Shown one piece after another: positions 7,645-38,403 of a stretch of DNA of 50,836 nucleotides (the first letter of the stretch is position 1; each line of letters begins with the position of its first letter). The translations under genes were made by a program, and so were the position numbers. Below the pieces are notes generated by a model that saw only the letters and a program-made list of their open reading frames with translations, had not been told where the DNA came from and did no database searches. This stretch comes from Actinomycetota bacterium (GTDB taxonomy: Bacteria; Actinomycetota; Thermoleophilia; Solirubrobacterales; 70-9). The stretch covers positions 1-50,836 of the forward strand of contig JAFDWC010000004.1 of the NCBI GenBank assembly GCA_018268655.1, read 5' to 3'.

Positions 7645-8445
7645 GTGAAGCCCGCGGCCTTCGATTACCACGCGCCGGAGTCGGTCGACGAGGCGCTCGA
7701 GCTGCTCGCCGACGAGGCGGTCGAGTCGCGGGTGCTGGCCGGCGGCCAGTCGCTGGTGCCGATGATGAACTTCCGCCTCGCGGTGCCGGAGGCGCTGGTC
7801 GACCTGCGTCGGATCGAGGAGCTGCGCTACCTGCGGATCGGCGCCGACGGTGCGCTCGAGGTCGGCGCCCGGACCACCCAGGCGGAGCTCCTGCGCGACC
7901 CTGCCGTCACCACCGGCTGGCCGCTGCTTCACGACGGCGTCACCCACATCGGCCACCCGCAGGTGCGCAGCCGCGGCACCGTCTGCGGCAGCCTCGCCCA
8001 CCACGATCCCCATGGCGAGCTGCCGGCGCTGGCGCTGGCGCTGGGGGCGACGATCACGGTGGCGGGGCCGGCCGGGCGCCGGCAGATTGCCGCCGAGGAC
8101 TTCTTCGTCTCCTTCTACGAGGTCGCGCTCGAGCCGGGCGAGCTGGTGGTCGAGGCGCGCTTCCCGGCGCCGCCGGCCGGTAGCGGCTGGTCCTTCCGCG
8201 AGATCGCCCGCCGCCACGGCGACTTCGCCCTGGTCGGCGTCGCCTGCCTGGTGACGCCGGCGCAGACGCGGCTGGTCGTCTTCGGCGCCGCCGAGCGGCC
8301 GCTGCTGCTGGCCGACCCGAGCGAGGTGGCGGCGGCGGTGCGGCCGCTCGACGACCTCCACGCCAGCGCCGAGTACCGGCGCCAGGTCGCGGTCCTGCTC
8401 GCCGGCGAGGCTCTGGCCGAGGCGCGGGAGCGGGCCGATGGCTGA
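7645..8445 (+). CDS. Molybdenum hydroxylase FAD-binding subunit (CoxM type)
   Basis: 266 aa. N-terminal FAD-binding region with AGGQSLVPMMNFR and a second FAD motif RGTVCGSLAHHDP, then the CoxM/CutM C-terminal domain. GTG start at 7645; an in-frame upstream extension is unlikely because the SDR ends at 7626. It passes electrons between the Fe-S subunit and the acceptor in the three-subunit xanthine dehydrogenase family. Overlaps the next gene by 8 nt. Gene order M-S-L is classic for this family. Confidence 0.92.
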   Translation: MKPAAFDYHAPESVDEALELLADEAVESRVLAGGQSLVPMMNFRLAVPEALVDLRRIEELRYLRIGADGALEVGARTTQAELLRDPAVTTGWPLLHDGVTHIGHPQVRSRGTVCGSLAHHDPHGELPALALALGATITVAGPAGRRQIAAEDFFVSFYEVALEPGELVVEARFPAPPAGSGWSFREIARRHGDFALVGVACLVTPAQTRLVVFGAAERPLLLADPSEVAAAVRPLDDLHASAEYRRQVAVLLAGEALAEARERADG

Positions 8446-8935
8446 CCCCGGCGCCGCGCGCGAGGTCCGGCTCAGCGTCAACGGCGTCGAGCGCGCCGGC
8501 ACGGCCGAGCCGCGGCTGCTGCTCTCCGACTTCCTCCGCCACCGGCTCGGCCTCACCGGCACCCACGTCGGCTGCGAGCACGGCGTCTGCGGTGCCTGCA
8601 CGGTCCTGCTCGACGGCGAGCCGGTCCGCTCCTGCCTCGTCTTCGCGGTCCAGGCCGACGGGGCGGCGCTGCGGACGGTCGAGGGCCTGGCCGGCGAGGA
8701 CGGCGAGCTGAGCCCGGTCCAGCAGGCCTTTCACGAGGCGCACGGGATGCAGTGCGGCTTCTGCACGCCGGGCTTCCTGATCTCGCTGACGGCGCTGCTC
8801 GAGGAGCGGCCGCAGGCGAGCGAGGAGGAGCTGGTCGACGCGCTCAGCGGCAACCTCTGCCGCTGCACCGGCTACGCCAACATCCTCGCCGCCGCTCGGG
8901 CGGCCCGCGACCGCGCCGCGGAGGGGCGGGCTTGA
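8438..8935 (+). CDS. Molybdenum hydroxylase [2Fe-2S] subunit (CoxS type)
   Basis: 165 aa, normal length. Plant-type ferredoxin cluster ligands C46, C51, C54 and C66 and the C-terminal cluster C106, C109, C141, C143 (CGFCTPGF, CRCTGY) are all present, so both clusters should form. It shuttles electrons from the molybdopterin site of the large subunit to FAD in CoxM. Start ATG lies within the end of the preceding gene and its stop overlaps the TTG start of the large subunit, indicating tight coupling. Confidence 0.95.
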   Translation: MADPGAAREVRLSVNGVERAGTAEPRLLLSDFLRHRLGLTGTHVGCEHGVCGACTVLLDGEPVRSCLVFAVQADGAALRTVEGLAGEDGELSPVQQAFHEAHGMQCGFCTPGFLISLTALLEERPQASEEELVDALSGNLCRCTGYANILAAARAARDRAAEGRA

Positions 8936-23959: not shown

Positions 23960-25792
23960 GTGATGTTCGGGATCCGGCGCCGCCGCGGATGCCGGGCGGG
24001 CATAGGATCGGCGGGTGGGAATCGGAAACGGGGCCTGGGCCTCGAGCGGGCGGGTCGAGGGCGCGAGAGGGTTGGTCCGCCTGAGTTGAACGCTCGCGAA
24101 TCCGTCGCCGGGCAGCGGCGGCGGCTGATTCCAATTCTCGACTGGCTGCCGAGGTACGACCGGCGCCTGCTGCGGGGCGATCTGGCGGCGGGCGTTGCCG
24201 TCACCGCGATGATCGTGCCGAAGGACCTCGGCTACGCGGGCATCGCCGGAGTGCCGATCCAAAACGGGCTCTACGCCGCCGCGGCGGGGGCGATCGTCTA
24301 CGCCCTCTTCTGCACCTCGAGGCAGATCTCGACCGGCCCCAGCTCCTCGCTGGCGGCGGTTGCCGGGGGAGCCGTCCTGGCGACCAGCCTCGGCGGCGCC
24401 GACGCCGCCCAGCTGGTCGCCGGCATCACCCTCCTCACCGGCGTCCTCTTCCTCCTGCTCGCGGTGCTGCGGATGGGTTGGATCGCGCAGTTCCTCTCGA
24501 AGGCGGTGGTGACCGGGTTCCTCGCCGGCTCGGCGGTCAGCGTCACGATCGGCGAGCTGTCGAAGCTGACCGGGACCGAAGCCGAAGGCGAGACCGCCTG
24601 GCGCGAGCTCGGGTCCTGGATCGGAGGCCTGGGGGAGATCCACTGGACGACGCTCCTGGTCGGCGCCGGCGCCCTCGCCGTGATCCTGATCCTGCGGTTC
24701 CGCTGGCCGAAGGCGCCGGGGGCGCTGGTCCTCGTCGTCGCCGGCCTTCTGGCCTCCCACCTCTTCGACCTCGGCGCGCACGGGGTGTCGCTGGTCGGGG
24801 CCGTGCCGCGCGGCCTGCCGGCGCCGGTGCTGCCGAGCATCGACGTGATGTCCGACCACATCTCGGCGATCGCGATCGCCTCGGTCGCCCTGCTCCTGAT
24901 CGGCTTCTCCCAGACCGCCGGCGACGCCCGCGCCTTCGCCGCCCGGCACCGCTACCGGATCGACGTCAACCAGGAGTCGGTCGCGCAGGGGATGGCGAAC
25001 GTCGGCTCCGGCTTCTTCCAGGGGATGCCGGTCTCGACCAGCCTCTCCGCCAGCTCCCTGAACGAGTCCTCCGGGGCGCGCACCCCGCTCGCCTCGCTGA
25101 CCACCGGCGCGCTCGTCCTCGCCACCCTCTTCGCCCTCGCCCCGCTCTTCTCCGAGCTGCCGAAGGCCGTGCTCGGCGCGATCATCATCGACGCCGTCGT
25201 CTTCGGGATGATCGACCTGCCGGAGCTCCGCCGGCTGCACCGGGTGGCCCGGTTCGACTTCCTCGTCGCCATCGCCGCGGTCGTCGCCGTGCTCTCGGCC
25301 GGGGTGCTGGCCGGCGTCGTGATCGGGGTCGCGCTCTCGCTCGGCTGGCTCGTCTACGTGACGACGCGCCCTTCGATCCCGTCCCTGGGCCGCGAGCCGG
25401 GAACCCAGGTGTTCCGCGACGTCACCGAAAACCCCGACGACGAGACCTTCCCCGGCTTCGCCGTGATCCGCCCCGACGGCGGCCTCTTCTTCGCCACCGC
25501 CGAGGCGCTCGAGGATCGGGTGCGGGAGCTGCGGGACTCCACCCGCCCGCGGCTGCGGGTGCTGGTGCTCGACCTCGAGGGGGTCAACTTCATCGACTCG
25601 CAGGGAGCGGCGAAGCTGACCGAAATCGAGGAGTTCGTCGGCATCGACGGCGCCGAGCTCCGCCTCGCCCGGGTCAAGCCGCCGGTCCTCGCAGTTCTGG
25701 AAGCGGAGGGCCTGATCGAGAAGATCGGGGCCGATCACCTGCACGGAAACGTCGACCGGGCCGTCGAGGCGGCCCTCGCCGCGCCCCGATGA
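23960..25792 (+). CDS. SulP/SLC26 anion transporter with STAS domain
   Basis: 610 aa as the longest frame. LPRYDRRLLRGDLAAGVAVTAMIVP opens the SulP core, which spans about ten to twelve helices (65-470); the C-terminal STAS domain (about 480-605) contains LDLEGVNFIDSQGAAKL, with the conserved DSQG. Transports sulfate, bicarbonate or other anions. The first 42 residues are Arg/Gly-rich and look non-coding; TTG 24086 is an alternative start, and TAGGAT (24003-24008) could be a -10 for it. Followed by a rho-independent terminator. Confidence 0.9.
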   Translation: MMFGIRRRRGCRAGIGSAGGNRKRGLGLERAGRGRERVGPPELNARESVAGQRRRLIPILDWLPRYDRRLLRGDLAAGVAVTAMIVPKDLGYAGIAGVPIQNGLYAAAAGAIVYALFCTSRQISTGPSSSLAAVAGGAVLATSLGGADAAQLVAGITLLTGVLFLLLAVLRMGWIAQFLSKAVVTGFLAGSAVSVTIGELSKLTGTEAEGETAWRELGSWIGGLGEIHWTTLLVGAGALAVILILRFRWPKAPGALVLVVAGLLASHLFDLGAHGVSLVGAVPRGLPAPVLPSIDVMSDHISAIAIASVALLLIGFSQTAGDARAFAARHRYRIDVNQESVAQGMANVGSGFFQGMPVSTSLSASSLNESSGARTPLASLTTGALVLATLFALAPLFSELPKAVLGAIIIDAVVFGMIDLPELRRLHRVARFDFLVAIAAVVAVLSAGVLAGVVIGVALSLGWLVYVTTRPSIPSLGREPGTQVFRDVTENPDDETFPGFAVIRPDGGLFFATAEALEDRVRELRDSTRPRLRVLVLDLEGVNFIDSQGAAKLTEIEEFVGIDGAELRLARVKPPVLAVLEAEGLIEKIGADHLHGNVDRAVEAALAAPR

Positions 25793-26523: not shown

Positions 26524-26916
26524 CTAGGCGAGCAGCTTCGCCTTCGCGCTCTCGAACTCCTCGGCCGAGAGCGCCCCCTTGTCCTTCAGTTCCGAGAGCT
26601 TGTGGAGTTCGTCGGCGGGCGAGCCGGACTTGGCCTGTTCCCGGACGTAGCTGTCGAACTCCTTTTTCGCGTCGGCCTGCTCCTTGATCGTGCGGTCGCG
26701 CATCCCGCTGCCGCGGACGATCAGGTAGAGCAGCACCCCGAAGAAGGGGAGGAAGACGAGGAAGAAGACCCAGACCGCCTTCGCGATTCCGGACAGCTCG
26801 TGGTCGCGGAAGAGGTCGGCGATGATCCCGATCAGGATCCAGATCCAGGCGAAGAGGAGGAAGAACTCGAGGACGAGCAGCAGCCCTTCGCCGAAGTTGA
26901 CGTCTGCGAACGCCAT
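26524..26916 (-). CDS. PLDc_N-like membrane protein with SHOCT domain
   Basis: 130 aa. Two membrane helices (about 10-33 and 45-68) with WVFFLVFLPFFGVLLYLIVRG, the PLDc_N (cardiolipin synthase N-terminal) motif, then a charged linker and a C-terminal SHOCT helix hairpin (about 101-130, LSELKDKGALSAEEFESAKAKLL). SHOCT domains are thought to mediate oligomerisation. It lies 4 nt from the DUF7144 gene. Related SHOCT tails occur at 27365 and 29738. Confidence 0.87.
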   Translation of the reverse strand: MAFADVNFGEGLLLVLEFFLLFAWIWILIGIIADLFRDHELSGIAKAVWVFFLVFLPFFGVLLYLIVRGSGMRDRTIKEQADAKKEFDSYVREQAKSGSPADELHKLSELKDKGALSAEEFESAKAKLLA

Positions 26917-26920
26917 CAGA

Positions 26921-27322
26921 TCAGTCCTCCACCCAGTTGATGCAGAGCTGGTAGATCAGGATCACGTCGAGGATGATGATCAGGAACGCCCACAGCGGTG
27001 CCGCCGGGAACCAGACGACCTGCAGGACCGCGTTGACGCCGAGCAGGAAGACGCCGGCCCAGCGCGCCGCGGTGTTGCCGGTCAGCAGCCCGAGCCCGGT
27101 GAGGGCGATGACGGCGCCGAGGATCAGCTGCACCCAGCCCCAGGTGGTGATGTCGAAGACGATCACGCCGTGACCGCCGACCACGACCACTTCGTTGTTG
27201 GCGAGCGCGGCGATGCCCCAGATCACGTCCAGGCAGCCGATGATCAGCATCATCACTCCGGCGAACGCGATCCAGGTGGAGCCTTGCCCTCCCCTTGGCT
27301 TCGAACTCTGACCAGCCTCCAT
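26921..27322 (-). CDS. DUF7144-type four-helix membrane protein
   Basis: 133 aa, about four membrane helices. WIAFAGVMMLIIGCLDVIWGIAALAN matches the start of the actinobacterial DUF7144 family, and the end AFLIIILDVILIYQLCINW also fits. Function unknown; such proteins sit in the cytoplasmic membrane and often neighbour stress-related genes. Co-directional with the SHOCT genes on both sides. Confidence 0.82.
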   Translation of the reverse strand: MEAGQSSKPRGGQGSTWIAFAGVMMLIIGCLDVIWGIAALANNEVVVVGGHGVIVFDITTWGWVQLILGAVIALTGLGLLTGNTAARWAGVFLLGVNAVLQVVWFPAAPLWAFLIIILDVILIYQLCINWVED

Positions 27323-27364
27323 CTACCTCTCCTTCTCGTCGGGCCCCGCGGGCCCGGGATTAGC

Positions 27365-27655
27365 TCAGGAGAGCAGCTTCGCCTTCTGTTCGGCGAACTC
27401 CTGCTCGGTGAGGATGCCCTGGGCTTTCAGTTCCCCGAGCTCCTTCAGCTGGTCGATCGTCGAAGCGCTGCTCGGCGCCGGCGCGGCGGGTGCCGGCGGC
27501 GCCTGCTGGGCCGCGGCGGCCTGCTGCTGTTCGTACTGCTCGGCTTCCTGTTTCGCCCATTTCTGGTCCTGGCGATGGTGGACGCGTCCGGCGACGCCGC
27601 TGGCGGTGCCGGCGACGACCGCGGTACGGGCAATTCCTCGAAGTAGACCTGGCAT
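27365..27655 (-). CDS. Small SHOCT-domain protein
   Basis: 96 aa. MPGLLRGIARTAVVAGTASGVAGRV, then an Ala/Gln/Pro-rich linker (about 38-63) and a C-terminal SHOCT motif (about 67-96, LKELGELKAQGILTEQEFAEQKAKLL). Start 27655 is supported by AAAGGAG; the frame extends to 27700 but that start lacks a ribosome site. It lies 13 nt after the DUF6325 gene, a pair that recurs in altered form at 29738-30463. Confidence 0.88.
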   Translation of the reverse strand: MPGLLRGIARTAVVAGTASGVAGRVHHRQDQKWAKQEAEQYEQQQAAAAQQAPPAPAAPAPSSASTIDQLKELGELKAQGILTEQEFAEQKAKLLS

Positions 27656-27668
27656 CGACTTGCTCCTT

Positions 27669-28109
27669 TCAGGCTGCTTCCTCGGCCGCTTCGAGCGCAC
27701 CGAGGAGGGCTTGGACGGGGATCCTGCCGCTGGCGACGAGCTGGCCGCCCGAGCGCCGCACGGCGGCGGCGAAGGGGCCGGCCCAGGCGTTCTCGAAGAT
27801 CAGCAGCGCTGCCGAGGTTTCGGGCTCGAGCACCGAGGCCGCGTCGGAGCGGTCTTCGTCGCTGATCAGCCCCGACTCCGCTCCCTCGAAGATCGCCAGC
27901 TCGGCGACCGCTTCGCCGAGGTCGGCGATCGCCAGCTCGAGCACGTTGCCGTCGGCGTCCTTGGCGATGAAGGCGAGGTCGAGGATGCGGATCAGGCCGC
28001 GGTCGACCAGGTCGATCAGATAGGGGATCGCCTCGCCGGTCGGCTGGCGCCCGGGCCACTCGACGACCAGGTAGTCGATCGGTCCCATCTCGAAGTTGTC
28101 GGTGCTCAT
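27669..28109 (-). CDS. DUF6325 family protein
   Basis: 146 aa. MGPIDYLVVEWPG, GEAIPYLIDLVDRGLIRILDL and the C-terminal LLIFENAWAGPFAAAVRRSGG are characteristic of DUF6325; no membrane helix. Start ATG 28109, one codon after a GTG. Paralogous to the protein at 29966 on the opposite strand. Reported neighbours of this family are SHOCT proteins, as here. Biochemical function unknown. Confidence 0.85.
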   Translation of the reverse strand: MSTDNFEMGPIDYLVVEWPGRQPTGEAIPYLIDLVDRGLIRILDLAFIAKDADGNVLELAIADLGEAVAELAIFEGAESGLISDEDRSDAASVLEPETSAALLIFENAWAGPFAAAVRRSGGQLVASGRIPVQALLGALEAAEEAA

Positions 28110-28132
28110 CACGCTCTCGTTTCGTTTCGGGG

Positions 28133-29578
28133 CTAGATTCCGCGCTGCACGTCTATTTCGCCGGCCTGCTCGGCCTCGAGCAGACGCCGGTAGTCGGCCT
28201 CGTTCTGGTCGGCGTATGAGGCGGCGAACTCGACGATCGCGCGCTCGAAGGTCTCACTATTACCGAGGTAGGCGGCGATCGCCACCCGGTCGCCGCTGCG
28301 GGCGTGGGCGCGGGCCAGGGTCCAGCCGCAGAGCTCGGCGTAGCCTTCCATCGCCGCCGGGCTCAGCGACTCGATCTCGGCCGAGCCCTTGCCGTCCCAG
28401 AGCTGGCGGACGTAGAAATGGCGCTCGACTCCGTCGAGGCCGGGCCCGTCGAGCCAGCCGAGGAAGATGTCGCCGGCGGCCTGCATCAACCGCTGTCCGG
28501 CGACCACCCGCTCGCCGTGGTGGTCGTAGCCGCTCTCGCCCGCGTAGGGCTCGAGCACCGAGGCCGCCGCCTGCTTGACCTGGAGGAACAGCGGGTCGCC
28601 CTGCTCGCGCCCCATCATCAGGGCGATCCAGGCGCGGGTGCCGACGCTGCCGACCCCGACAACCTTGTGGCCGCCGTCGACGAACCGGAAGCGGTCGACG
28701 AGGGCGCGGCTCTGGTCGTCGAGGCTGTCGCGGTAGCGCTCGAGGAGCGCCCCCATCATCGCCTCAAGCTCCGCCTCACCGAGGTCGCCGGCGAGCTCGC
28801 TCAGCGGCACCAGGACCGGCGGGCGGCTGGCGATCCGGGGGCCGGCCTCGGTCTCTTCGGTCAGTTTCTCCAGCGCCCGCAGGCTGTCCTTGTTGCGGGC
28901 CTTGCGCAGGTTCTTCTGGAACCGCTTGCGGTCGGCCTCGGTCACCCTCGACTGCAGCCGGGAGGCGATCTCCTCGACGTCGAGTCGCGCGTACCAGACG
29001 CCGAGCTCGCTGGCCGCCGCGAACGAGCGCATCGCCAGCCGGTAGTGGCGGGCGGCCGCAAGCGTGCATTTGCGGCGCTGGCGGCTGCTGAAGCCGCGGT
29101 CGCGGCCGCCGATCTCGAAGCTCGCGGCGAGCCGCTTGACGTCCCACTCGAACGGCCCCGGCAGGGTCTCGTCGAAATCGTTGATGTCGAAGACCATGCG
29201 GCGATCCGGGGCCTGGAAGATGCCGAAGTTGGAGAGGTGGGCATCGCCGCAGAGCTGGGCGACCAGGCCGGTGTCCGGCGTCGAGCCGAGGTCGGCCGCC
29301 ATGATCGCCGCGGCGCCGCGGTAGAAGGTGAAGGCCGAGGCCAGCATCCGCCCGTAGCGGATCGGCACCAGCTCGGGGACCCGGGCCGCGTCCTGCTCGC
29401 GGAGGATCGCGGCGGGGTCGGTGCGGTCGGCGGGGGCCTGCCAGGTTTCGTGCGAGGAGCGGGGCGACGCCTTGCGGGCCGCTCGACCGGCGGCGCGCCC
29501 CCGCTCGGCGTCGGCAGTGGCCGGTGGCGAGGGCGTGGCGGTGGTCGTGGCTCGTGATGATTTAGTTGCGGTTGCCAT
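28133..29578 (-). CDS. DUF2252 family protein
   Basis: 481 aa, the family length. The N-terminal 40 residues are Ala/Thr/Arg-rich and probably flexible. Core motifs: VPIRYGRMLASAFTFYRG, CGDAHLSNFG and VFDINDFDET, the last two resembling the catalytic and metal loops of kinase-like/aminoglycoside phosphotransferase folds. It may be a cytoplasmic phosphotransferase-like enzyme; activity unproven. It lies between the two SHOCT/DUF6325 pairs and is divergent from the second, with palindromic operators in the gap. Confidence 0.9.
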   Translation of the reverse strand: MATATKSSRATTTATPSPPATADAERGRAAGRAARKASPRSSHETWQAPADRTDPAAILREQDAARVPELVPIRYGRMLASAFTFYRGAAAIMAADLGSTPDTGLVAQLCGDAHLSNFGIFQAPDRRMVFDINDFDETLPGPFEWDVKRLAASFEIGGRDRGFSSRQRRKCTLAAARHYRLAMRSFAAASELGVWYARLDVEEIASRLQSRVTEADRKRFQKNLRKARNKDSLRALEKLTEETEAGPRIASRPPVLVPLSELAGDLGEAELEAMMGALLERYRDSLDDQSRALVDRFRFVDGGHKVVGVGSVGTRAWIALMMGREQGDPLFLQVKQAAASVLEPYAGESGYDHHGERVVAGQRLMQAAGDIFLGWLDGPGLDGVERHFYVRQLWDGKGSAEIESLSPAAMEGYAELCGWTLARAHARSGDRVAIAAYLGNSETFERAIVEFAASYADQNEADYRRLLEAEQAGEIDVQRGI

Positions 29579-29614
29579 GAGGTCGAAGCTTTGCCCTCCG
29601 CCGTCGACCTCGCA

Positions 29615-29631
29615 TCATCCGGATTGGGTGA
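29615..29631. promoter_or_regulatory. Operator-like palindrome, site 1
   Basis: TCATCCGGATTGGGTGA, a near-perfect TCAYCC-N5-GGGTGA palindrome in the 159-bp gap between the divergent DUF2252 and SHOCT genes. The centre is 45 bp from site 2, and the match continues for eight more partly conserved bases (CGAA). Confidence 0.6.
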
Positions 29632-29659
29632 TCTACGAACGGTCGCCGACCTACTTATT

Positions 29660-29676
29660 TCACCCCGATTGCGTGA
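29660..29676. promoter_or_regulatory. Operator-like palindrome, site 2
   Basis: TCACCCCGATTGCGTGA. Shares CCCGATTG and GTGAT with site 1 and 15 of 17 bases with the minus-strand copy at 32754-32770. Lies 62 bp before the plus-strand SHOCT-like gene. Confidence 0.6.
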
Positions 29677-29737
29677 TGCGCGAACGCCATCGCCGCCGTG
29701 AAGATGCTTCGGGAACTCAAGAGGAGGACGGAGACCG

Positions 29738-29962
29738 ATGCTGAGGCGAAGGCCACTGACCCCGGCCTGGATGCTCGAAGGAGTGGGGCGGGAAAGCGCC
29801 TCGCGCGGCTCGCTGGCGCCACACGCGCCGCGGGAGGGGGCCGGCGGCCGGCGGGCCGAGACCCGGGCCGACGCGCTGAGCACGCTCGACGGCCTCTTCG
29901 ACTCCGGCCTCCTCACCCGGCAGCAGTTCCTCGACGAGCGCAGGCGCCTGCTCGGAGGCTGA
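29738..29962 (+). CDS. Small SHOCT-like protein
   Basis: 74 aa. A basic, disordered N-terminus is followed by a SHOCT-like C-terminal hairpin (about 49-74, LDGLFDSGLLTRQQFLDERRRLLGG). Good SD AGGAGG before ATG. It is followed after 3 nt by the DUF6325-like gene, giving a second SHOCT-DUF6325 pair, here with SHOCT first. No membrane helix. Confidence 0.78.
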   Translation: MLRRRPLTPAWMLEGVGRESASRGSLAPHAPREGAGGRRAETRADALSTLDGLFDSGLLTRQQFLDERRRLLGG

Positions 29963-29965
29963 TCG

Positions 29966-30463
29966 ATGACCGCAGCCGGGTTCGGCACGGAGGTTCTCGG
30001 GCCGGTGCAGGTACTGGTGATCGGGGTCGAGGAGGAGGGGGCCCGCGGTCGGATCGCCGCCGAGCTGGGCAGGCTGGCGGCGAGCGACGGCGTCCGCATC
30101 CTCGACCTGCTGAGCGCCCGGCGCCTGGCCGACGGCGAGTTCGCGCTGACCCGCCCATCCGGCCCGTTCCCGGCCGAAGGCAGGCTCGTCGAGGCCCTCC
30201 TCGGCGCCGATCGCGCCGGCTCCGGCGATGCCGGCGACCGGGCCACGGCGCGGCCGGCGCGGGAAGAGGTCTGGTACCTGGCCGACCGGGTGCCGCCCGG
30301 TCGCTCGGCGGAGATCGTCCTCGTCGAGCACCGCTGGGCGATCCCGTTGCGCGAAGCGGCGTCGGAGTTCGAGTCGGAGATCTTCGGCGACGCCTGGCTG
30401 CATCCGCAGGACCTGGCCAACGCGAGGTCAGCCGTCGGCGGGTCGGGGCCCGAGCCTTCCTAG
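29966..30463 (+). CDS. Divergent DUF6325-like protein
   Basis: 165 aa. LGPVQVLVIGVE and GVRILDLLSARR align with GPIDYLVVEWPG and LIRILDLAFIAK of the protein at 27669, and IVLVEHRWAIPLREA with LLIFENAWAGPFAAA. It carries an inserted Gly/Ala/Arg-rich loop (about 75-95) missing in its paralogue. Probably a cytoplasmic partner of the small SHOCT protein encoded just before it. Function unknown. Confidence 0.75.
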   Translation: MTAAGFGTEVLGPVQVLVIGVEEEGARGRIAAELGRLAASDGVRILDLLSARRLADGEFALTRPSGPFPAEGRLVEALLGADRAGSGDAGDRATARPAREEVWYLADRVPPGRSAEIVLVEHRWAIPLREAASEFESEIFGDAWLHPQDLANARSAVGGSGPEPS

Positions 30464-30512: not shown

Positions 30513-32795
30513 ATGCGCTCGAAGACTTCGGGTCCCGTGGATTCAGGTGGCGAGAGCGCGGTCGACCGCGGTTCGCGCCGGGTCGCGGGCATCGATCTGG
30601 GCGGGCCTGGCTGGCGCCGGCTGGTCGAGCGCGAGCGGCTCGTCGCGCGGCTGCGAGGCACCGACACGCCGTTGGCCCTCCTCCACGCGCCCGCCGGCTA
30701 CGGCAAGTCGGTGCTGCTCGCCCAGTGGTCGCGCCTCGACTCGCGGCCGTTCGCCTCGGTCACCCTGACCCGGTCGCACAACGATCCGGCCGTGCTGGTC
30801 GCTTCGGTGATCGAGGCGCTGGCAGCGGTCGAGCCCCTGCCGGACGCGGTCGCCGCCGCGATCCGAACCGCGCAGCCGAACCTCGACGTCGTCGTGCCCC
30901 GGCTCGAGGCGGGGCTCCGCGCCCGGCGGCTGGACTCGGTGCTCGTCCTCGACGAGCTCGAGCACCTCCGCTCGGACGCCAGCCTGCGGGTGCTCGAGGC
31001 GATCATGGCCGGGGTCGAGGGCGGCTCGCGGCTGGCGATGGCGACCCGTCGCACGCCGCCGATCCACGCCGCCCGGCTGCAGGCGGCCCGCCGCCTGATC
31101 TCGTTCGGCGCCTCGGACCTGGTGATGACGCCGGGGGAGGCGAGGCAGGTACTGGCCGAGGCGGGCCTGGATGCGCCGGAGCCTGAGGTCGAGGCGATCC
31201 TGGCCAAGACCGAGGGCTGGCCCGTCGCCCTCTACCTGGCGGGCCTCAGCGGCCGCAGTCGATCCGAGCCGCGGCTTCCGGAGGCCGGCCTCGGTGGCGA
31301 GGAGGGCAACCTGGTCGACTACATGCGCGAGGAGCTGATCGCCACGGCGGCCCCCGAGGACGTCGATTTCCTGGTTCGCGCATCGGTGCTCGATCGCCTC
31401 TCCGGACCGCTCTGCGACGAGCTGCTCGGGGTCGGCGATTCGGGATCCAGGCTCGCCGAGCTGTCGCGGGAGAACCTGCTGCTGATCCCGCTCGACCAGC
31501 ACGACGAGTGGTTCCGGATGCACTCGCTGCTGGCCGAGATGCTGCGGGCCGAGCTGCGCCGCCGCCACGGTGGCGAGGTGGGGGAGCTGAACGGGCGCGC
31601 GTCGCGCTGGTGGGAGTCGGCCGGCGACCCCGATCGCGCCGTCCGCTTCGCCCTCGAGGCCGCTGAATTCGCCCGTGCCGGGAGGCTGATCTGGGAAGCG
31701 GTGCCGGCCTTCAACACCACCGGCCGCTACGCGACGATCCAGCACTGGATCGAGGAGATCGGGCTCGAACGCGCCGCCCGCGACCCGCACCTGAGCCTGA
31801 CCGTCGCCCATGGCCTGCTGGCCGAAGGGGACGGGGGCGGGGCCGAGTACTGGGGCGAGGTCGCGCGGCCGTTGCTCGCCGGGCCCGGAGACGCCGCTGA
31901 TGATCTCGAGGCCGGGATGGCGATGCTCGACGCCGCGCTGGGGCGGGGGGGAACCGCGCAGATGGCCGCCTCGGCGGCGCTGGCGCGGACCTCCCTGGAC
32001 CACGACAGCCCCTGGGCGGCGATGGCGAGCCTGGTGGCCGGCCTCGCCGCGCACCTGGGCGGCGAGCGGGAAAAGGCCAGGCGCGAGCTCGCCGACGGCG
32101 CCCGCCGGGCGGCGGTCTGGAACGTGCCGCTGATCCAGGTGCTGGCGCTCGCCCAGCTGGCCCTCCTGCATGCGTCCGAAGGCGACTGGCAGAGCGCGCG
32201 GATCCTCTCCTCCCAGGCCCGGGCCCAGGTCGACCGCTCGGGGTTGATCGCCCGCCCCTCGATCGTCCTCGCCGTCGCCGTCTCGGCCTACGTGGCCGCG
32301 GCCGACGGCCGCCGCGAGGAGGCGAGGTCGGACCTCCGTACCGGCCGCAAGCTGCTCGCCAGGCTGCGCGAGTTCGCCCCCTGGTTCGAGGTCGAGACCG
32401 CCTCGGCGCTGGCCGCCGCCGCCACCGAGCTGAAGGCCCCGGGCGTCGCCGTCGAGCTCCTGGCCCAGGCCCGGGCGAAGCTCGCGCGCCAGCCCGACGC
32501 GCCGATGCTCGACGCCTGGGTGGCGAGCATCGGCGAAGCCAACGCGGCACTGGAGTCGGCCGGCGTCGCCGGGCTGACCGGGGCCGAGCTCCGGGTCCTG
32601 CGGCTGCTGCCGAGCCACCTCTCCCATCGCCAGATCGCGGCGGAGCTGATCGTCTCGCCGAACACGGTGAAGACGCAGATGCGCTCCGTCTACCGCAAGC
32701 TCGGAGTGTCGAGCCGGCACGAAGCGGTCGAGGTCTGCCTCAGCCTGGGCCTATCGCCCAATCGGGGTGATTCGTACCCGGTGACCCGCGAATAA
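30513..32795 (+). CDS. LuxR-family LAL (MalT-like) transcriptional regulator
   Basis: 760 aa from ATG 30513. ATPase with Walker A APAGYGKS (about 59-66) and LDELEHL as Walker B-like; WPVALYLAGL is typical of STAND/MalT regulators. A long helical repeat region follows, then a LuxR HTH (about 690-755, LTGAELRVLRLLPSHLSHRQIAAEL and VSPNTVKTQMRSVYRKLGVSSR). A TAGGGT -10 lies 10 nt before the ATG. It probably activates neighbours through the TCACCC-N5-GGGTGA sites; the last copy lies in its own final codons, upstream of the exporter gene. Confidence 0.92.
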   Translation: MRSKTSGPVDSGGESAVDRGSRRVAGIDLGGPGWRRLVERERLVARLRGTDTPLALLHAPAGYGKSVLLAQWSRLDSRPFASVTLTRSHNDPAVLVASVIEALAAVEPLPDAVAAAIRTAQPNLDVVVPRLEAGLRARRLDSVLVLDELEHLRSDASLRVLEAIMAGVEGGSRLAMATRRTPPIHAARLQAARRLISFGASDLVMTPGEARQVLAEAGLDAPEPEVEAILAKTEGWPVALYLAGLSGRSRSEPRLPEAGLGGEEGNLVDYMREELIATAAPEDVDFLVRASVLDRLSGPLCDELLGVGDSGSRLAELSRENLLLIPLDQHDEWFRMHSLLAEMLRAELRRRHGGEVGELNGRASRWWESAGDPDRAVRFALEAAEFARAGRLIWEAVPAFNTTGRYATIQHWIEEIGLERAARDPHLSLTVAHGLLAEGDGGGAEYWGEVARPLLAGPGDAADDLEAGMAMLDAALGRGGTAQMAASAALARTSLDHDSPWAAMASLVAGLAAHLGGEREKARRELADGARRAAVWNVPLIQVLALAQLALLHASEGDWQSARILSSQARAQVDRSGLIARPSIVLAVAVSAYVAAADGRREEARSDLRTGRKLLARLREFAPWFEVETASALAAAATELKAPGVAVELLAQARAKLARQPDAPMLDAWVASIGEANAALESAGVAGLTGAELRVLRLLPSHLSHRQIAAELIVSPNTVKTQMRSVYRKLGVSSRHEAVEVCLSLGLSPNRGDSYPVTRE
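32754..32770. promoter_or_regulatory. Operator-like palindrome, site 3
   Basis: TCGCCCAATCGGGGTGA; on the minus strand TCACCCCGATTGGGCGA. It lies within the last codons of the LuxR gene, directly upstream of the expected -35 of the MFS gene, whose TAATCT -10 (32793-32798) lies 9 nt before GTG 32808. Position fits a class II activator. Confidence 0.6.
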
Positions 32796-32807: not shown

Positions 32808-34424
32808 GTGACCAAGTGGCCAGTCCTCCTCGTCCTCGGCGCCGCCCAGTTCCTGATGGTCCTCGACCAGGCGGTGATGAACGTCGCGATCTCCCAGCTG
32901 GTCGCCGACTTCGACACCACGGTGACCACGATCCAGGCGGTGATCGCGCTCTACGCCCTGGTGATGGCGGCGCTGATGCTGGTCGGGGGCAAGCTCGGCG
33001 ACCTGCTCGGACGCCGCCGCGCCTTCGCCATCGGCCTCTGCATCTACGCCGCCGGCTCCGGCCTCACCGCCGCCTCCTGGAGCGTCCCCAGCCTGACCCT
33101 GGGCTGGTCGGTGCTGGAGGGGATCGGCGCCGCCCTGGTGATGCCGGCGATGGTCGCCCTCGTCGCCTCCAACTTCCGCGACCAGGAGCGGGCGCTCGCC
33201 TACGGGGTCCTCGGCGGCGTCTCCGGGATCGGGATTGCGGTCGGGCCGATCCTCGGTGGCTGGGCGACGACCGAGCTCAGCTGGCGGGTCGTCTTCGCCG
33301 GTGAGGTCCTGGTCGCGATCGGGATCCTGATCGGGACCCGGCTGCTCGCCGACTCGAAGGACGAGCGGGCGCGGCCCCAGCTCGACTGGTTCGGCGGCGT
33401 CCTCTCCGCCGCCGGTCTCGGGCTGATCGTGCTCGGCGTGCTGGAGGCCAGCAACTGGGGCTGGCTCGCCCCCCGCAACTCGCCGCTGGAGCCGTTCGGC
33501 TTTGCCCTGACCCCGTTCGTGATCGCCGCCGGCGGCGCCCTGCTGGCGGCCTTCGCGAGCTGGCAGCGCCATCGCGAGGCGGCCGGCCGCGATCCCCTCG
33601 TCCATCTCGACCTGATCAAGCTGCCGCGGCTGCGGTCGGGGCTGACGATGCTGCTCTCCCAGAACCTGATCCTGATGGGGATCTTCTTCACCGTGCCGCT
33701 CTTCCTCCAGGTCGTGCAGGGGCTCGACGCGCTCGAAACCGGGGTGCGGATGCTCCCCGCCTCCGCCGGCCTCTTCATCAGCGCCCTTGCCGGCTCGGCG
33801 CTGGCCAAGCGGGTGCCGGCGCGGCGGATCGTCCGCGTCGGGCTGGTGATCGTCTTCGTCGCGACCCTGCTACTGCTCGACACGATCGAGCCCGAACTCG
33901 ACAACGCCAGCTTCCTGATCGCGATGGGCGTGCTCGGGGTCGGGATGGGGCTGGTCGTCTCCCAGCTCGGCAACGTCGTCCAGTCCTCGGTCGGGGACGA
34001 GGGGCGCAGCGAGGCCGGGGGCCTGCAGTTCACCGCCCAGCAGCTCGGCTCCTCGCTGGGGACCGCCTTCCTCGGCGCGGTCGTCATCACCGGCCTGATC
34101 GGAGCCTTCTCGGCCAGCGTCGAAGCCAACCCGAGGATCGACAACGCGGTCAAGGAACAGGTCCAGGTCCACCTCAGCTCCGGGGTCAGCTTCGTCCCGG
34201 CGAGCGAGGTCGAGGCCTCGGCGGAAAAGGCCGGGGTTCCGGCCGCGACCGCCGGCGAGCTCGTCTCCGCCTACGAAGGCGCCCAGCTCAGCGCGCTCAA
34301 GGTCGCCTTCCTCTTCGCCGCCGTGCTGGTGCTCGCCGCTCTGCTCGCGACCCGCAACCTGCCGACCAAGCTCTTCTCGGAGATCACCACCGGGGCCGAC
34401 CCGCCCCCGGCGACAACCAGTTAG
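32808..34424 (+). CDS. MFS transporter, DHA2 (14-helix) drug-exporter type
   Basis: 538 aa. LVLGAAQFLMVLDQAVMNVAI begins helix 1; motif A GGKLGDLLGRRR follows helix 2, and VLGGVSGIGIAVGPILGGW is motif C of proton antiporters. About 14 helices, with a large extracytoplasmic loop near 430-480. GTG start, 12 nt after the regulator stop, with a TAATCT -10 giving an almost leaderless mRNA. Exports unknown hydrophobic compounds, likely under the adjacent LAL regulator. Confidence 0.93.
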   Translation: MTKWPVLLVLGAAQFLMVLDQAVMNVAISQLVADFDTTVTTIQAVIALYALVMAALMLVGGKLGDLLGRRRAFAIGLCIYAAGSGLTAASWSVPSLTLGWSVLEGIGAALVMPAMVALVASNFRDQERALAYGVLGGVSGIGIAVGPILGGWATTELSWRVVFAGEVLVAIGILIGTRLLADSKDERARPQLDWFGGVLSAAGLGLIVLGVLEASNWGWLAPRNSPLEPFGFALTPFVIAAGGALLAAFASWQRHREAAGRDPLVHLDLIKLPRLRSGLTMLLSQNLILMGIFFTVPLFLQVVQGLDALETGVRMLPASAGLFISALAGSALAKRVPARRIVRVGLVIVFVATLLLLDTIEPELDNASFLIAMGVLGVGMGLVVSQLGNVVQSSVGDEGRSEAGGLQFTAQQLGSSLGTAFLGAVVITGLIGAFSASVEANPRIDNAVKEQVQVHLSSGVSFVPASEVEASAEKAGVPAATAGELVSAYEGAQLSALKVAFLFAAVLVLAALLATRNLPTKLFSEITTGADPPPATTS

Positions 34425-34437
34425 GAACGGAGGACAG

Positions 34438-34803
34438 ATGCTGAAGAGAATCGACGACATGCCCGCCGGGACGATCGGCTTCGAAGCCGTCGGCGAGGTC
34501 GAGGACGACGACTGGACGGACGACGTCGAACCGCTGCTGCGGGAGCTGATCGCCGGCGGCGGCAAGGTACGCATGCTCTACGTGCTCGGGCCGCGGAGCG
34601 GCGAGATCGAGGGCGACGCCTTCGGCGCCGACGCCAAGTTCAGGGCCCGGCACCTGAGCTCGTTCGAGCGCCTCGCGGTGGTCAGCGACGAGGACTGGAT
34701 GCGGCCGGCTCTGGCGGCGCTCTCGTTCCTGCTCCCAGGGCACGCCAAGGCGTTTCGGAACACCGAGCGCGAGGCGGCCAAGGCCTGGTTGGCGGCCGGG
34801 TAG
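34438..34803 (+). CDS. SpoIIAA-like (STAS/SEC14-type) protein
   Basis: 121 aa. MLKRIDDMPAGTIGFEAVGEV and the middle VRMLYVLGPRSGEIEGDAF match the SpoIIAA-like family (PF11964), alongside a C-terminal helix. Small cytoplasmic proteins of this family probably bind hydrophobic ligands or partners. SD GGAGGACAG before ATG, 13 nt after the MFS gene, so co-transcribed. Followed by a strong bidirectional hairpin. Confidence 0.87.
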   Translation: MLKRIDDMPAGTIGFEAVGEVEDDDWTDDVEPLLRELIAGGGKVRMLYVLGPRSGEIEGDAFGADAKFRARHLSSFERLAVVSDEDWMRPALAALSFLLPGHAKAFRNTEREAAKAWLAAG

Positions 34804-35165: not shown

Positions 35166-35321
35166 CGTCGGCTCCTTCCTGGTTTGGCCTTCCCCCGTCC
35201 GTTGCCCATCTGCGGCCGGTCCAAACCTAAAAGCGGCCAGTTCGCGGATTTCGGGCCAGGGGTCGCCGGGTACTAGGGGGGCGGGTGGCTCGTCCACGCG
35301 AGCGTGCAGAGAGGCTCGACC

Positions 35322-37388
35322 GTGGAGCAAGACCGAGACGCCAGCGGCGGTCACGGGTTCCGGACCGACGTCGAGGGGCTGCGCGCGGTCGCGATCGTCG
35401 CCGTCCTCCTCTGCCACGCCGGCGTCCCCTGGCTGGCCGGCGGGTTCATCGGCGTCGACGTCTTCTTCGTCATCTCCGGCTTCCTCATCACCGAGCTGCT
35501 GCTGACCGAGCTGCGCCGCCGCGGCACGATCTCGCTGCCCCGCTTCTACGCCAACCGCGCCAAACGGATCCTGCCCCTGGCGGCGCTGCTGCTGTCATCG
35601 GTCTCCGTCGTCTCGCTGCTGCTGCTGTCGCCGCTGCGGCGGCTCGAAGTCTCCGGCGACGTCGTCAGCTCGGCCCTCTACGTCGTCAACTGGCACTTCG
35701 CGGCGCAGTCGGTGAACTACTTCGCCCAGGGGGTCGAACCGAGCCCCGTCCTCCACCTCTGGTCGCTCTCGGTCGAGGAGCAGTTCTACCTCGTCTGGCC
35801 GACCATGCTGCTGATCGTCGGCTGGCTCTGCCGGCGCGCCGGCGGCTCGCTGCGGCTCGCGGTCGGGCTCACCGTCGCCGTCGTCTTCGCGGGGTCGCTG
35901 GCGCTGGCGAGCGTGCAGAGCGCAAGCGAGCCCGCCTTCGCCTACTTCTCGACCCTCGACCGCGGCTGGGAGCTGGCGCTCGGCGGCGGCCTCGCCGTGC
36001 TCGGGCCGCTGCGGCTGCCGCGGGCGCTCGCCGCCGCCGTCGGCTGGGCCGGGCTGGCGGCGATCGTCTACGCCGTCCTCGCCTTCGGCGCAAGGGTCCC
36101 GTTCCCGGGCCCGGCGGCGCTGGTGCCGACGCTGGGGGCGGCGGCGCTGATCGTCGCCGGCACCTCGGCCGGTGCCGAGGTGCGCGCCGCCCCGGCGGCG
36201 GCACTCTCGCTACCGCCGGTCCGCTACGTCGGCCGCATCTCCTACTCGTGGTACCTCTGGCACTGGCCGGCGCTGGTATTCGCCGCCCTCCTGCTCGGCC
36301 GGCTCTCGCCCCTCGGCGGCCTCGCGGTGGTGCTGGCGGCGCTGCTCCCGACCGTCGTCAGCCACCACCTGGTCGAGGACCCGGTGCGGTTCCGGCGCAG
36401 CCTCGTGCGGGTGCCGATCCGCGGCCTCGCGCTCGGCAGCGGCTGCATGGCGACGGCGCTCGCCGCCGGCCTGCTGCTGGTCCAGCTGCAGCCGAGCTGG
36501 CGCACGCTCCCGGCTGCGGAGGCGAAGGGCGCGACCCTGCTGCGCTACGAACCGCGGCCCGAGCAGCGGGCCTCGGCGATCAGCCCGTCGCCGACCGAGG
36601 CGCCCCAGGACCTGCCCGGTCCGGTTGCCGCCGGCTGCCTGGTCGGCATCCGCGGCACCGAATCGGGCCGCTGCGCCTACGGCGATCCCAGCGGCAGCCG
36701 CACCCTCGTCCTCTTCGGCGACTCGCACGCGATGCAGCAGTTCCCCGCCCTCGACCTGATCGCTGAGCGCAACGGCTGGCGGCTGCTGGTGCTGACCAAG
36801 CGCGAATGCAGCCCGGCCGAGGTCGCGATCGTCAACAGCGCCGAACGCCGCGAGTACTCGCAGTGCGACCTCTGGCGGCGCAACGCGCTGCGCCGGATCG
36901 AAGCCGGCCCGCACGCCTGGGCGGTGGCGATCAGCGGCGACAGCGCCGAGCGCGCGGCCGGCCCGAACGGCGCCGGGCTGAGCGGGCCGGCCGGCATCGC
37001 CGCGGTCGAATCGGGCTGGATGGCGACGCTGACCCGGCTGCGGCGGGCCGGCCTGCGGACGGTGGTGATCGGCGACACGCCGAAGGCGACGACCGACGTC
37101 CCCAGCTGCGTCTCGGAAAACATGGGCGACCTCGAAGCCTGCGGGTTCGGGCTGCCGCGGGGCCGCGCCCGCAGCGTCGAACTGCGGGCGGCCCGCCGGG
37201 TCGGCGCCGGCGCGATCTCGATCACGCCGGAGATCTGCCCCGGCGGCCGCTGCCGCGCGGTGATCGGCGGGGTCCTCGTCTACCGCGACAACGCCCACCT
37301 CACGGCGACCTACGCGCGCACCCTCAACCGCTGGCTCGAACCCCGTCTTAAGGAGGCCATTGAAAATGGAGAGAAGACTCCGGGGTGA
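35322..37388 (+). CDS. Acyltransferase-3/SGNH fusion (OafA-like)
   Basis: 688 aa. Residues about 13-375 are the acyltransferase-3 membrane domain with RTDVEGLRAVAIVAVLLCHAG (catalytic H32), GGFIGVDVFFVISGFLI and SLSVEEQFYLVWP. Residues about 440-680 are a periplasmic SGNH domain with LFGDSHAMQ and the DxxH motif DNAH. Such proteins O-acetylate cell-surface glycans. GTG 35322 is preferred over GTG 35304 because of GAGAGG 7 nt upstream. The next SGNH gene overlaps its 3' end by 23 nt. Confidence 0.9.
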   Translation: MEQDRDASGGHGFRTDVEGLRAVAIVAVLLCHAGVPWLAGGFIGVDVFFVISGFLITELLLTELRRRGTISLPRFYANRAKRILPLAALLLSSVSVVSLLLLSPLRRLEVSGDVVSSALYVVNWHFAAQSVNYFAQGVEPSPVLHLWSLSVEEQFYLVWPTMLLIVGWLCRRAGGSLRLAVGLTVAVVFAGSLALASVQSASEPAFAYFSTLDRGWELALGGGLAVLGPLRLPRALAAAVGWAGLAAIVYAVLAFGARVPFPGPAALVPTLGAAALIVAGTSAGAEVRAAPAAALSLPPVRYVGRISYSWYLWHWPALVFAALLLGRLSPLGGLAVVLAALLPTVVSHHLVEDPVRFRRSLVRVPIRGLALGSGCMATALAAGLLLVQLQPSWRTLPAAEAKGATLLRYEPRPEQRASAISPSPTEAPQDLPGPVAAGCLVGIRGTESGRCAYGDPSGSRTLVLFGDSHAMQQFPALDLIAERNGWRLLVLTKRECSPAEVAIVNSAERREYSQCDLWRRNALRRIEAGPHAWAVAISGDSAERAAGPNGAGLSGPAGIAAVESGWMATLTRLRRAGLRTVVIGDTPKATTDVPSCVSENMGDLEACGFGLPRGRARSVELRAARRVGAGAISITPEICPGGRCRAVIGGVLVYRDNAHLTATYARTLNRWLEPRLKEAIENGEKTPG

Positions 37389-38403
37389 GTTGTTCGGAGA
37401 CGGCGGAAAGCGGCGGTGGCGACGATGGCCGGAGCGGCCGCGGCGGGCGCTCCTCTACCTGTGGCTGTGGCCGATCCTGCTGGCGGCGCTGCTCAGCCTG
37501 GTCGCCGGCCACGTCCGCGGTCCGACCGCGGTGGCGGCGACCTCGAGCGGCGCCAGCGGCGTCAGGTTCGTGCCCGCGGCGGCGCACTCGAGCGCCCGCC
37601 CGCGGCCGATTCGCCCCGCCCCGCGACGGGCCGGCGCCAACGTGCCGCCGCCGCTGCGCCAGGGCTGCATGATCGGCGTCCATGGCACCAGGTCCGGCCG
37701 CTGCCTCTACGGCGATCCGCACGGCAAGCTCAGCATCTTCCTCTTCGGCGACTCCCACGCCCTCCAGTACTTCCCGGCGCTGGAGGCGATCGCCAAGCGG
37801 AACCGCTGGCGCCTCTACGTCCTCACCAAGCGCGAATGCACCCCCGCCGAGGTCACCGTGCTCGGCAAGGGAGGCGGCCCCTACCGGACCTGCGACGCCT
37901 GGCGCAACGCGAGCCTGAAGCGGATCGACGCGAGCGGGCGGCCGACCACCGTCGTCCTCAGCGGCGACGCCGCGACGATCGCGCTCGGCCCGGCCGGCGA
38001 AGCGCTCGGCGGCGTCGCCGACGCGGAAGCGCTCGAACGCGGCTACGTCCGAACCCTGAGGCGGATCCGCGGCGCCGGCATCGGCGGGGTCGTGATCCAC
38101 GACGACCCGCAGGCGCCGACCGACGTGCCCAGCTGCGTCGCCGCCAACCCGAGCCGACCGGCGGCCTGCAACTTCCCGCGGCCGCACTCCTTCGACCGCA
38201 ACTTCGACCTGCGGGCGGCGCGGAGGGTGGCCGGCACCAGGATCGTCAACCCCGATTCGCGGATCTGCCCGCACGGCGTCTGCCAGGCGGTGATCGGCGG
38301 CATCCTCGTCTACCGCGACGACGCCCACCTCACCGCCGACTTCGCGCGGACCCTGCAGTCGCTGCTGGAACCGGGCCTGAGGGCGGCGTCGGGCGGGCGC
38401 TAG
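37366..38403 (+). CDS. Membrane-anchored SGNH-domain protein
   Basis: 345 aa. One membrane helix (about 29-47), a Pro/Arg linker and an SGNH domain with LFGDSHALQYFPAL (S130), KRECTPAEV and RDDAHLT. It is clearly paralogous to the C-terminal domain of the preceding acyltransferase (same KREC, CDLWR/CDAWR, DVPSC and YRDxAHLT blocks) but lacks the acyltransferase domain. ATG 37366 has AGGAGG 9 nt upstream. It may add a second esterase or transferase site. Confidence 0.88.
   Translation: MERRLRGELFGDGGKRRWRRWPERPRRALLYLWLWPILLAALLSLVAGHVRGPTAVAATSSGASGVRFVPAAAHSSARPRPIRPAPRRAGANVPPPLRQGCMIGVHGTRSGRCLYGDPHGKLSIFLFGDSHALQYFPALEAIAKRNRWRLYVLTKRECTPAEVTVLGKGGGPYRTCDAWRNASLKRIDASGRPTTVVLSGDAATIALGPAGEALGGVADAEALERGYVRTLRRIRGAGIGGVVIHDDPQAPTDVPSCVAANPSRPAACNFPRPHSFDRNFDLRAARRVAGTRIVNPDSRICPHGVCQAVIGGILVYRDDAHLTADFARTLQSLLEPGLRAASGGR

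Follow-up and report, generated by a model that had tools for sequence, protein, structure and literature searches.

The window examined here, a 50,836-nucleotide stretch of DNA from an Actinomycetota bacterium of the order Solirubrobacterales (contig JAFDWC010000004.1), contains a divergent locus in which genes for DUF2252, DUF6325, SHOCT and DUF7144 proteins are read away from a shared promoter region, and the question is what unites them. The computational evidence suggests that the locus is probably a single unit within a stress regulon of actinobacteria that has not been described before, under a GerE-type activator acting at TCAYCC-N5-GGRTGA, a 17-base-pair (bp) inverted repeat found in the ~160-bp divergent promoter region. 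Copy 1 of this putative operator, TCATCCGGATTGGGTGA (29615..29631), has no mismatches and lies with its centre 45 bp ahead of the ATG of DUF2252; it is the only exact 17-bp copy found in the 3.37-Mb draft genome. Copy 2, TCACCCCGATTGCGTGA (29660..29676), has one mismatch, is followed by TGC and is centred 70 bp upstream of the ATG of the plus-strand SHOCT gene (SHOCT2). Copy 3, TCGCCCAATCGGGGTGA (32754..32770), likewise with one mismatch, sits inside the 3' end of a LuxR gene, its centre 46 bp upstream of the GTG of an MFS exporter gene. The initial form of the motif was TCACCC-N8-TGATGC, with two copies in the region that separates the start codons of DUF2252 and SHOCT2 and only three exact copies genome-wide, the third just upstream of a DUF1269 gene. 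This form proved too loose, as sites lacking GG[AG] before TGA tend to be intragenic and untied to DUF6325, and its TGC extension is not general; the motif was therefore redefined, by refinement on independent sites, as TCAYCC-N5-GGRTGA. Sigma-70 and terminator scans gave no match.

The spacing of the operator is rigid. In loci fetched solely for DUF6325, the motif with a 5-bp spacer occurs at 50 intergenic vs 2 coding positions, with ~84% of the DNA called coding; at none of the other spacer lengths from 0 to 10 is there more than one intergenic site. Site counts in 14 genomes (26, 11, 6, 5, 4 and so on) compare with values at or near zero for controls, and four genomes without DUF6325 have no operator sites. 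Among 399 genomes of the class, DUF6325-superfamily genes are over-represented in those with strict sites (28/39 vs 92/360, odds ratio 7.4, p 1.7e-8), and those with degenerate sites alone show no such excess (odds ratio 1.2, p 0.6). Around the motif hits and two module loci, 87 sites were examined, 82 of them intergenic, and they precede genes for the DUF6325/DUF1269 superfamily (13), DUF7144 (11), PLDcN-SHOCT or SHOCT proteins (5), LuxR proteins (4) and DUF2252 (3). A motif search blind to gene content thus recovers, from the operator itself, the families named in the initial annotation, and the shared operator is independent evidence for a stress-type regulon. Glutamate decarboxylase, its identity upheld by an NCBIfam equivalog and by relatives in the PDB, is preceded by the operator in five cases; further genes encode a sulfatase, an MFS protein, an AI-2E transporter, glucose-6-phosphate dehydrogenase, a Bestrophin-like protein, ClC, cytochrome bd, PPK2 and a Ca-type P-ATPase. 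It is glutamate decarboxylase, ClC, cytochrome bd, PPK2, the P-ATPase, AI-2E and the Bestrophin-like protein that lend the set its stress flavour. In DUF6325 loci, sites stand at 31 of 176 promoters of core genes, compared with 16 of 535 promoters of other genes (p 7e-10), and a weight matrix finds them at 15/38 DUF7144, 9/19 PLDcN-SHOCT and 8/21 MalT-type LuxR promoters vs 37/879 others. One complete genome (G608:C1:3895500-3941500) gathers most of the regulon into one island of ~45 kb with at least eight operator sites and genes for LuxR-MalT, DUF6325, the DUF6325-like family D6325b, glutamate decarboxylase, DUF7144, sulfatase and DUF2252.

The position of the sites suggests a mode of action. 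Site centres cluster 43-47 bp upstream of start codons (31 of ~121), in the range of the DUF2252 and MFS sites of the window, and weak TANNNT-like -10 hexamers follow ~22 bp past the site, close upstream of the start codon. Class II activator sites are centred ~42-46 bp upstream of the transcription start, so at leaderless promoters a distance of 43-47 bp would fit such an activator; activation rather than repression is inferred. The protein that may fill this role is encoded in the window itself. P0010 (30513..32795, plus strand), a MalT/LAL-type LuxR regulator of 760 amino acids, belongs to the LuxR/GerE family by its GerE helix-turn-helix (Pfam PF00196, 41.5 bits; cut-off 23.5) and also has an AAA ATPase domain (AAA_22, above the cut-off) and a weakly matching, TPR-like stretch (TPR_MalT). 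In this architecture it resembles MalT and other LAL-type LuxR proteins. It is not MalT, however: its score against the MalT equivalog (NCBIfam PRK04841) is 220.3 bits, far under the cut-off of 537, and its candidate target is an inverted repeat rather than a MalT box.

The locus contains two DUF6325-SHOCT pairs, one on each strand, which the initial annotation had described as mirror images. The plus-strand pair, called diverged there, is real: its members score under the Pfam cut-offs, yet profile-profile comparison (hhalign) links DUF6325 with the family of the plus-strand protein P0007 at 98.4% (E 9e-15), and an orthologous SHOCT and P0007-like pair lies at 8009-8272 and 8265-8741 of the congener locus L062. 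Mirror symmetry, by contrast, did not hold up. The two DUF6325 proteins, P0004 and P0007, belong to distinct subfamilies and are ~22% identical, the order along transcription is DUF6325 then SHOCT on the minus side and SHOCT then DUF6325-like on the plus side, and no long inverted repeat spans both pairs. These three observations rule out a recent inverted duplication; the pairs are old paralogues with opposite conserved gene orders. A model of the second subfamily, D6325b, finds strong relatives, at >70 bits, across six or more families of the class, and a SHOCT domain lies directly upstream on the same strand in 26 of 30 loci. For classical DUF6325, the gene that follows downstream encodes SHOCT in 25 of 28 loci from across the phylum, and SHOCT is in the next same-strand gene, at 188-332 bp, in 70 of 80 loci from genomes of named actinobacterial species. 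Each DUF6325 subfamily thus keeps its own SHOCT partner and gene order, and the functional partnership proposed in the initial annotation is well supported. The source genome has only two DUF6325 matches, both in this locus, together with three of its eight SHOCT matches, a clustering far beyond chance.

DUF6325 is also homologous to DUF1269 (PF06897; hhalign 96.3%, E 1.7e-9), which recurs in DUF6325 neighbourhoods, adjoins the same genes and comes under the same operator. The families differ in that DUF1269 usually has a glycine-rich membrane insert, which DUF6325 and D6325b lack. DUF1269-like proteins without the insert occur in the same neighbourhood at L043:4671-5138 and L061:1057-1479 and are possible intermediates between DUF1269 and DUF6325. 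AlphaFold models of P0004 (predicted local distance difference test, pLDDT, 87, good) and P0007 (pLDDT 76, fair) suggest a beta-alpha-beta-beta-alpha-beta topology that recalls ferredoxin-like domains. A search of PDB structures with these models gave no match at E 0.001, and a function based on the fold was dropped for this reason. Sequence searches of solved structures with DUF6325 and DUF2252 returned no match, and those obtained with a small DUF1269 alignment were judged to be chance.

The other families gather around the DUF6325-SHOCT pair. A survey of co-occurrence had been suggested with the initial annotation, and in the 80 loci from named species DUF7144 (23/80), PLDcN (16/80) and DUF2252 (12/80) lie within 3 kb of DUF6325, their density dropping to about zero at 8-10 kb. 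The co-occurrence half of the refuting test proposed there thus came out in favour of the partnership. A LuxR-MalT gene is within 3 kb in 16 of the 80 loci, in 11 of these within 1 kb. Co-location of DUF7144, DUF2252, PLDcN and LuxR-MalT extends from Solirubrobacterales to Streptomyces (e.g. L168, L205, L176). A family of 444-amino-acid membrane proteins without a Pfam match (L166:8460-9791 and relatives) is often found directly upstream of DUF6325; it is present in 20 of the 80 loci, mostly at position -1 and mainly in Streptomyces. The Solirubrobacterales-like DUF6325 locus L155 (CAMCUD010000010.1) is titled 'Bifidobacterium breve isolate TrH-03may19-71', a title that looks wrong, as the locus matches G626:C10 (137206 bp), which is placed in the window's own order.

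Which protein recognises the operator is the point on which explanations of the regulon diverge. The MalT-type LuxR protein is the best candidate, because in several genomes the site stands in the promoter of its own gene and because it is a frequent neighbour. The operator is present in the LuxR-MalT promoters of L062, L058 and L144 and upstream of two long LuxR genes in G608; 8-9 of 21 MalT-type promoters have it, and a MalT-type gene lies in or adjoins the module in the window and in seven other loci (L062, L144, L146, L154, L143, L058 and L068). In the likeliest reading a GerE-type activator drives the regulon, perhaps the MalT-type LuxR protein. Alternatively, the regulon is real but answers to a response regulator of the NarL/BldM type, paired with its cognate HisKA_3 kinase, the LuxR-MalT protein being a mere neighbour or target. 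This is the less likely assignment, although a known system speaks for it. In Streptomyces, the BldM Group I regulon controls sporulation genes from TCACCC-N4-GGGTGA (Al-Bassam et al., 2014; PMC4125116). Its site, TCACcCgnncGgGTGA, has half-sites identical to those of the present operator (PMC4125116), and the two systems share the TCACCC/GGGTGA inverted repeat, a DNA-binding protein of the GerE family, activation and intergenic sites. They differ in the spacer, 4 bp in BldM and 5 bp here, and in the genes controlled, sporulation genes there and DUF6325, SHOCT, DUF7144 and ion/acid-type genes here. The present sites do not belong to the BldM Group I operators, given that the DUF6325-selected loci have no intergenic site at spacer 4 as against the 50 at spacer 5. 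In genome G738 (L274/L275), operators flank a short LuxR response regulator and a HisKA_3 kinase, and short LuxR genes (220-232 amino acids) recur near the module; however, none of 11 short LuxR promoters carries the operator.

Common regulation itself may be questioned. If DUF6325-SHOCT were simply a conserved pair, DUF2252, DUF7144, PLDcN-SHOCT and LuxR could be loose accessory genes of a variable region, each under its own control. Gene neighbourhoods do differ greatly among DUF6325 loci, only 12-16 of 80 have DUF2252 close by, and the strict operator stands at a minority of DUF6325 promoters. Against this, the density of each family falls from the near to the far flanks of DUF6325, and an operator search that ignores gene content returns the same families; a loose gathering without shared regulation is improbable. 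Less probable still is an anti-phage or conflict system, in which a kinase-like DUF2252 protein and SHOCT or transmembrane effectors would operate under a STAND regulator. SHOCT domains, membrane effectors and STAND-type ATPases do occur in conflict systems, and P0001, the PLDc_N-SHOCT protein, has a weak Pfam match to the S_4TM effector domain (E 0.006), but glutamate decarboxylase, cytochrome bd and PPK2 are examples of housekeeping stress enzymes within the regulon. Apart from these alternatives, several observations weigh against a single stress regulon as favoured here. The window offers one perfect and two one-mismatch operator copies, and the strict site is found at only 9 of 78 DUF6325 promoters. 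Many lineages, among them those of most Streptomyces loci, would therefore control the module by other means or through sites that have diverged. Some operator genes, such as those for sulfatase and aldose epimerase, point to no single stress. The source genome is a fragmentary draft metagenome-assembled genome (3.37 Mb in 335 contigs), gene starts come from our own codon-usage gene caller, and the enrichment tests carry no correction for shared ancestry.

The genes of the locus form two compact series. The minus-strand series runs from 29578 to 25808 with intergenic gaps of 4 to ~42 bp. Its first gene, P0005 (28133..29578), encodes a DUF2252 protein (PF10009, 468.5 bits) that belongs to this family and carries the motifs GDAHLSNFG and FDINDFDET, of the kinase-like GDxHxxN and DxD types. 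It is followed by DUF6325 (P0004, 27669..28109; PF19850, 46.5 bits) and its SHOCT partner (P0003, 27365..27655; PF09851, 35.3 bits). Next come the DUF7144 membrane protein P0002 (26921..27322; PF23636, 118 bits), with four hydrophobic segments by hydropathy, and P0001 (26524..26916; PF13396, 31.0 bits, and PF09851, 34.4 bits, both above the cut-off), with two transmembrane segments by the same measure. The series closes with P0009 (26325..26507), a membrane peptide of 60 amino acids with homologues near the same module in L048 and L045, and P0008 (25808..26284), a membrane-anchored coiled-coil protein of 158 amino acids with one N-terminal transmembrane segment by hydropathy and a homologue near the same module in L062. 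The plus-strand series begins with SHOCT2 (P0006, 29738..29962; orthologue at L062 8009-8272), which scores 23.2 bits against a SHOCT cut-off of 27 although it is aligned over the whole domain; both P0003 and P0001 exceed that cut-off. The D6325b protein P0007 (29966..30463), with an EHRWAI motif, begins 3 bp later and scores 15.9 bits against a PF19850 cut-off of 23.4, which P0004 passes; by the Pfam rule P0007 thus represents a related subfamily rather than a member. Behind the regulator P0010 lie a DHA2/EmrB-like MFS exporter (32808..34424; MFS_1, 169.6 bits; NCBIfam TIGR00711, 182 bits, under the cut-off of 230) and, after a gap of 13 bp, a SpoIIAA-like protein (34438..34803; PF11964, 78 bits), possibly co-transcribed with the MFS gene.

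All genes named in the initial annotation are open frames at these coordinates, and the minus-strand families named there are above the Pfam cut-offs; the regulator and the MFS gene behind the plus-strand pair had been left out. The statement that all parts lack known functions was too strong, since the protein-kinase clan includes DUF2252 (PMC9758233) and a LuxR-type regulator can be recognised in the cluster. Of that interpretation as a whole, the functional partnership stands, and the mirror image and the general lack of functions do not; a physical partnership, or SHOCT tails that link membrane and soluble components, would be a further conjecture. A SulP permease with a STAS domain (24209-25792) and the SpoIIAA-like protein bracket the module. 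Further along the window, at 35304-38403, an Acyltransferase-3/SGNH protein is directly followed by a second SGNH protein, a possible cell-surface acyl-modification pair.

Two other known systems invite comparison. In Escherichia coli, glutamate-dependent acid resistance consists of glutamate decarboxylase and a ClC antiporter. Genes for both types of protein carry the operator here and adjoin DUF6325, but the regulator type, the operator and the accessory proteins are different. Phage-shock (PSP) and PSP-like envelope systems (PMC11237479) share with the present module SHOCT-type domains, small transmembrane proteins, a transcription regulator and a proposed assembly at the membrane. Among ten module proteins scanned, PspA, PspC, Toastrack and LiaI-LiaF had no Pfam match above the cut-off, and the PspA-like coiled-coil similarity of P0008 is a sub-threshold match only. 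The literature searched contained no mention of DUF6325 or DUF7144, nor did it connect SHOCT to glutamate decarboxylase or a Streptomyces regulon; for the operator motif, BldM was the only relevant parallel. Operator-controlled stress regulons are known as a kind, and this operator and its membership appear to be undescribed.

How the parts might work together can be outlined for the favoured reading, a stress regulon under a GerE-type activator. An activator of the LuxR/NarL superfamily, most likely the linked MalT-type LuxR protein, would bind TCAYCC-N5-GGRTGA and, at sites centred 43-47 bp upstream of the start codon, lie across the -35 region of a promoter without a leader. It would thereby turn on DUF2252-DUF6325-SHOCT-DUF7144-PLDcN-SHOCT on one side and SHOCT2-D6325b-LuxR, perhaps with MFS, on the other. 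The predicted membrane products are DUF7144, PLDcN-SHOCT and the small transmembrane and coiled-coil proteins; the soluble ones would be the small DUF6325/DUF1269 superfamily proteins paired with SHOCT. The kinase-clan DUF2252 completes the set. One proposed role of SHOCT-like domains is the recruitment of proteins to the membrane (PMC11237479), although the original study of SHOCT found no oligomerisation (PMC3581485). By hydropathy the module products look membrane-associated, and they may form or service a membrane-associated complex under envelope, acid/ion or energy stress. More tentatively, and at less than even chances, the MalT-type STAND ATPase might itself sense acid/ion or energy stress and, through the operator, induce a SHOCT-organised membrane module along with glutamate decarboxylase, ion channels and alternative respiration.

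Soil actinobacteria widely encode DUF6325, DUF7144, DUF1269, DUF2252 and SHOCT, and the literature hardly mentions them. If the proposed regulon is true, several of these widespread families would gain one common physiological role. SHOCT, whose role has long been an open question, gains a reproducible partner in DUF6325. An operator that predicts gene membership turns separate unknowns into one testable regulon, with a defined sequence for mutation, a candidate regulator for purification and stresses to try.

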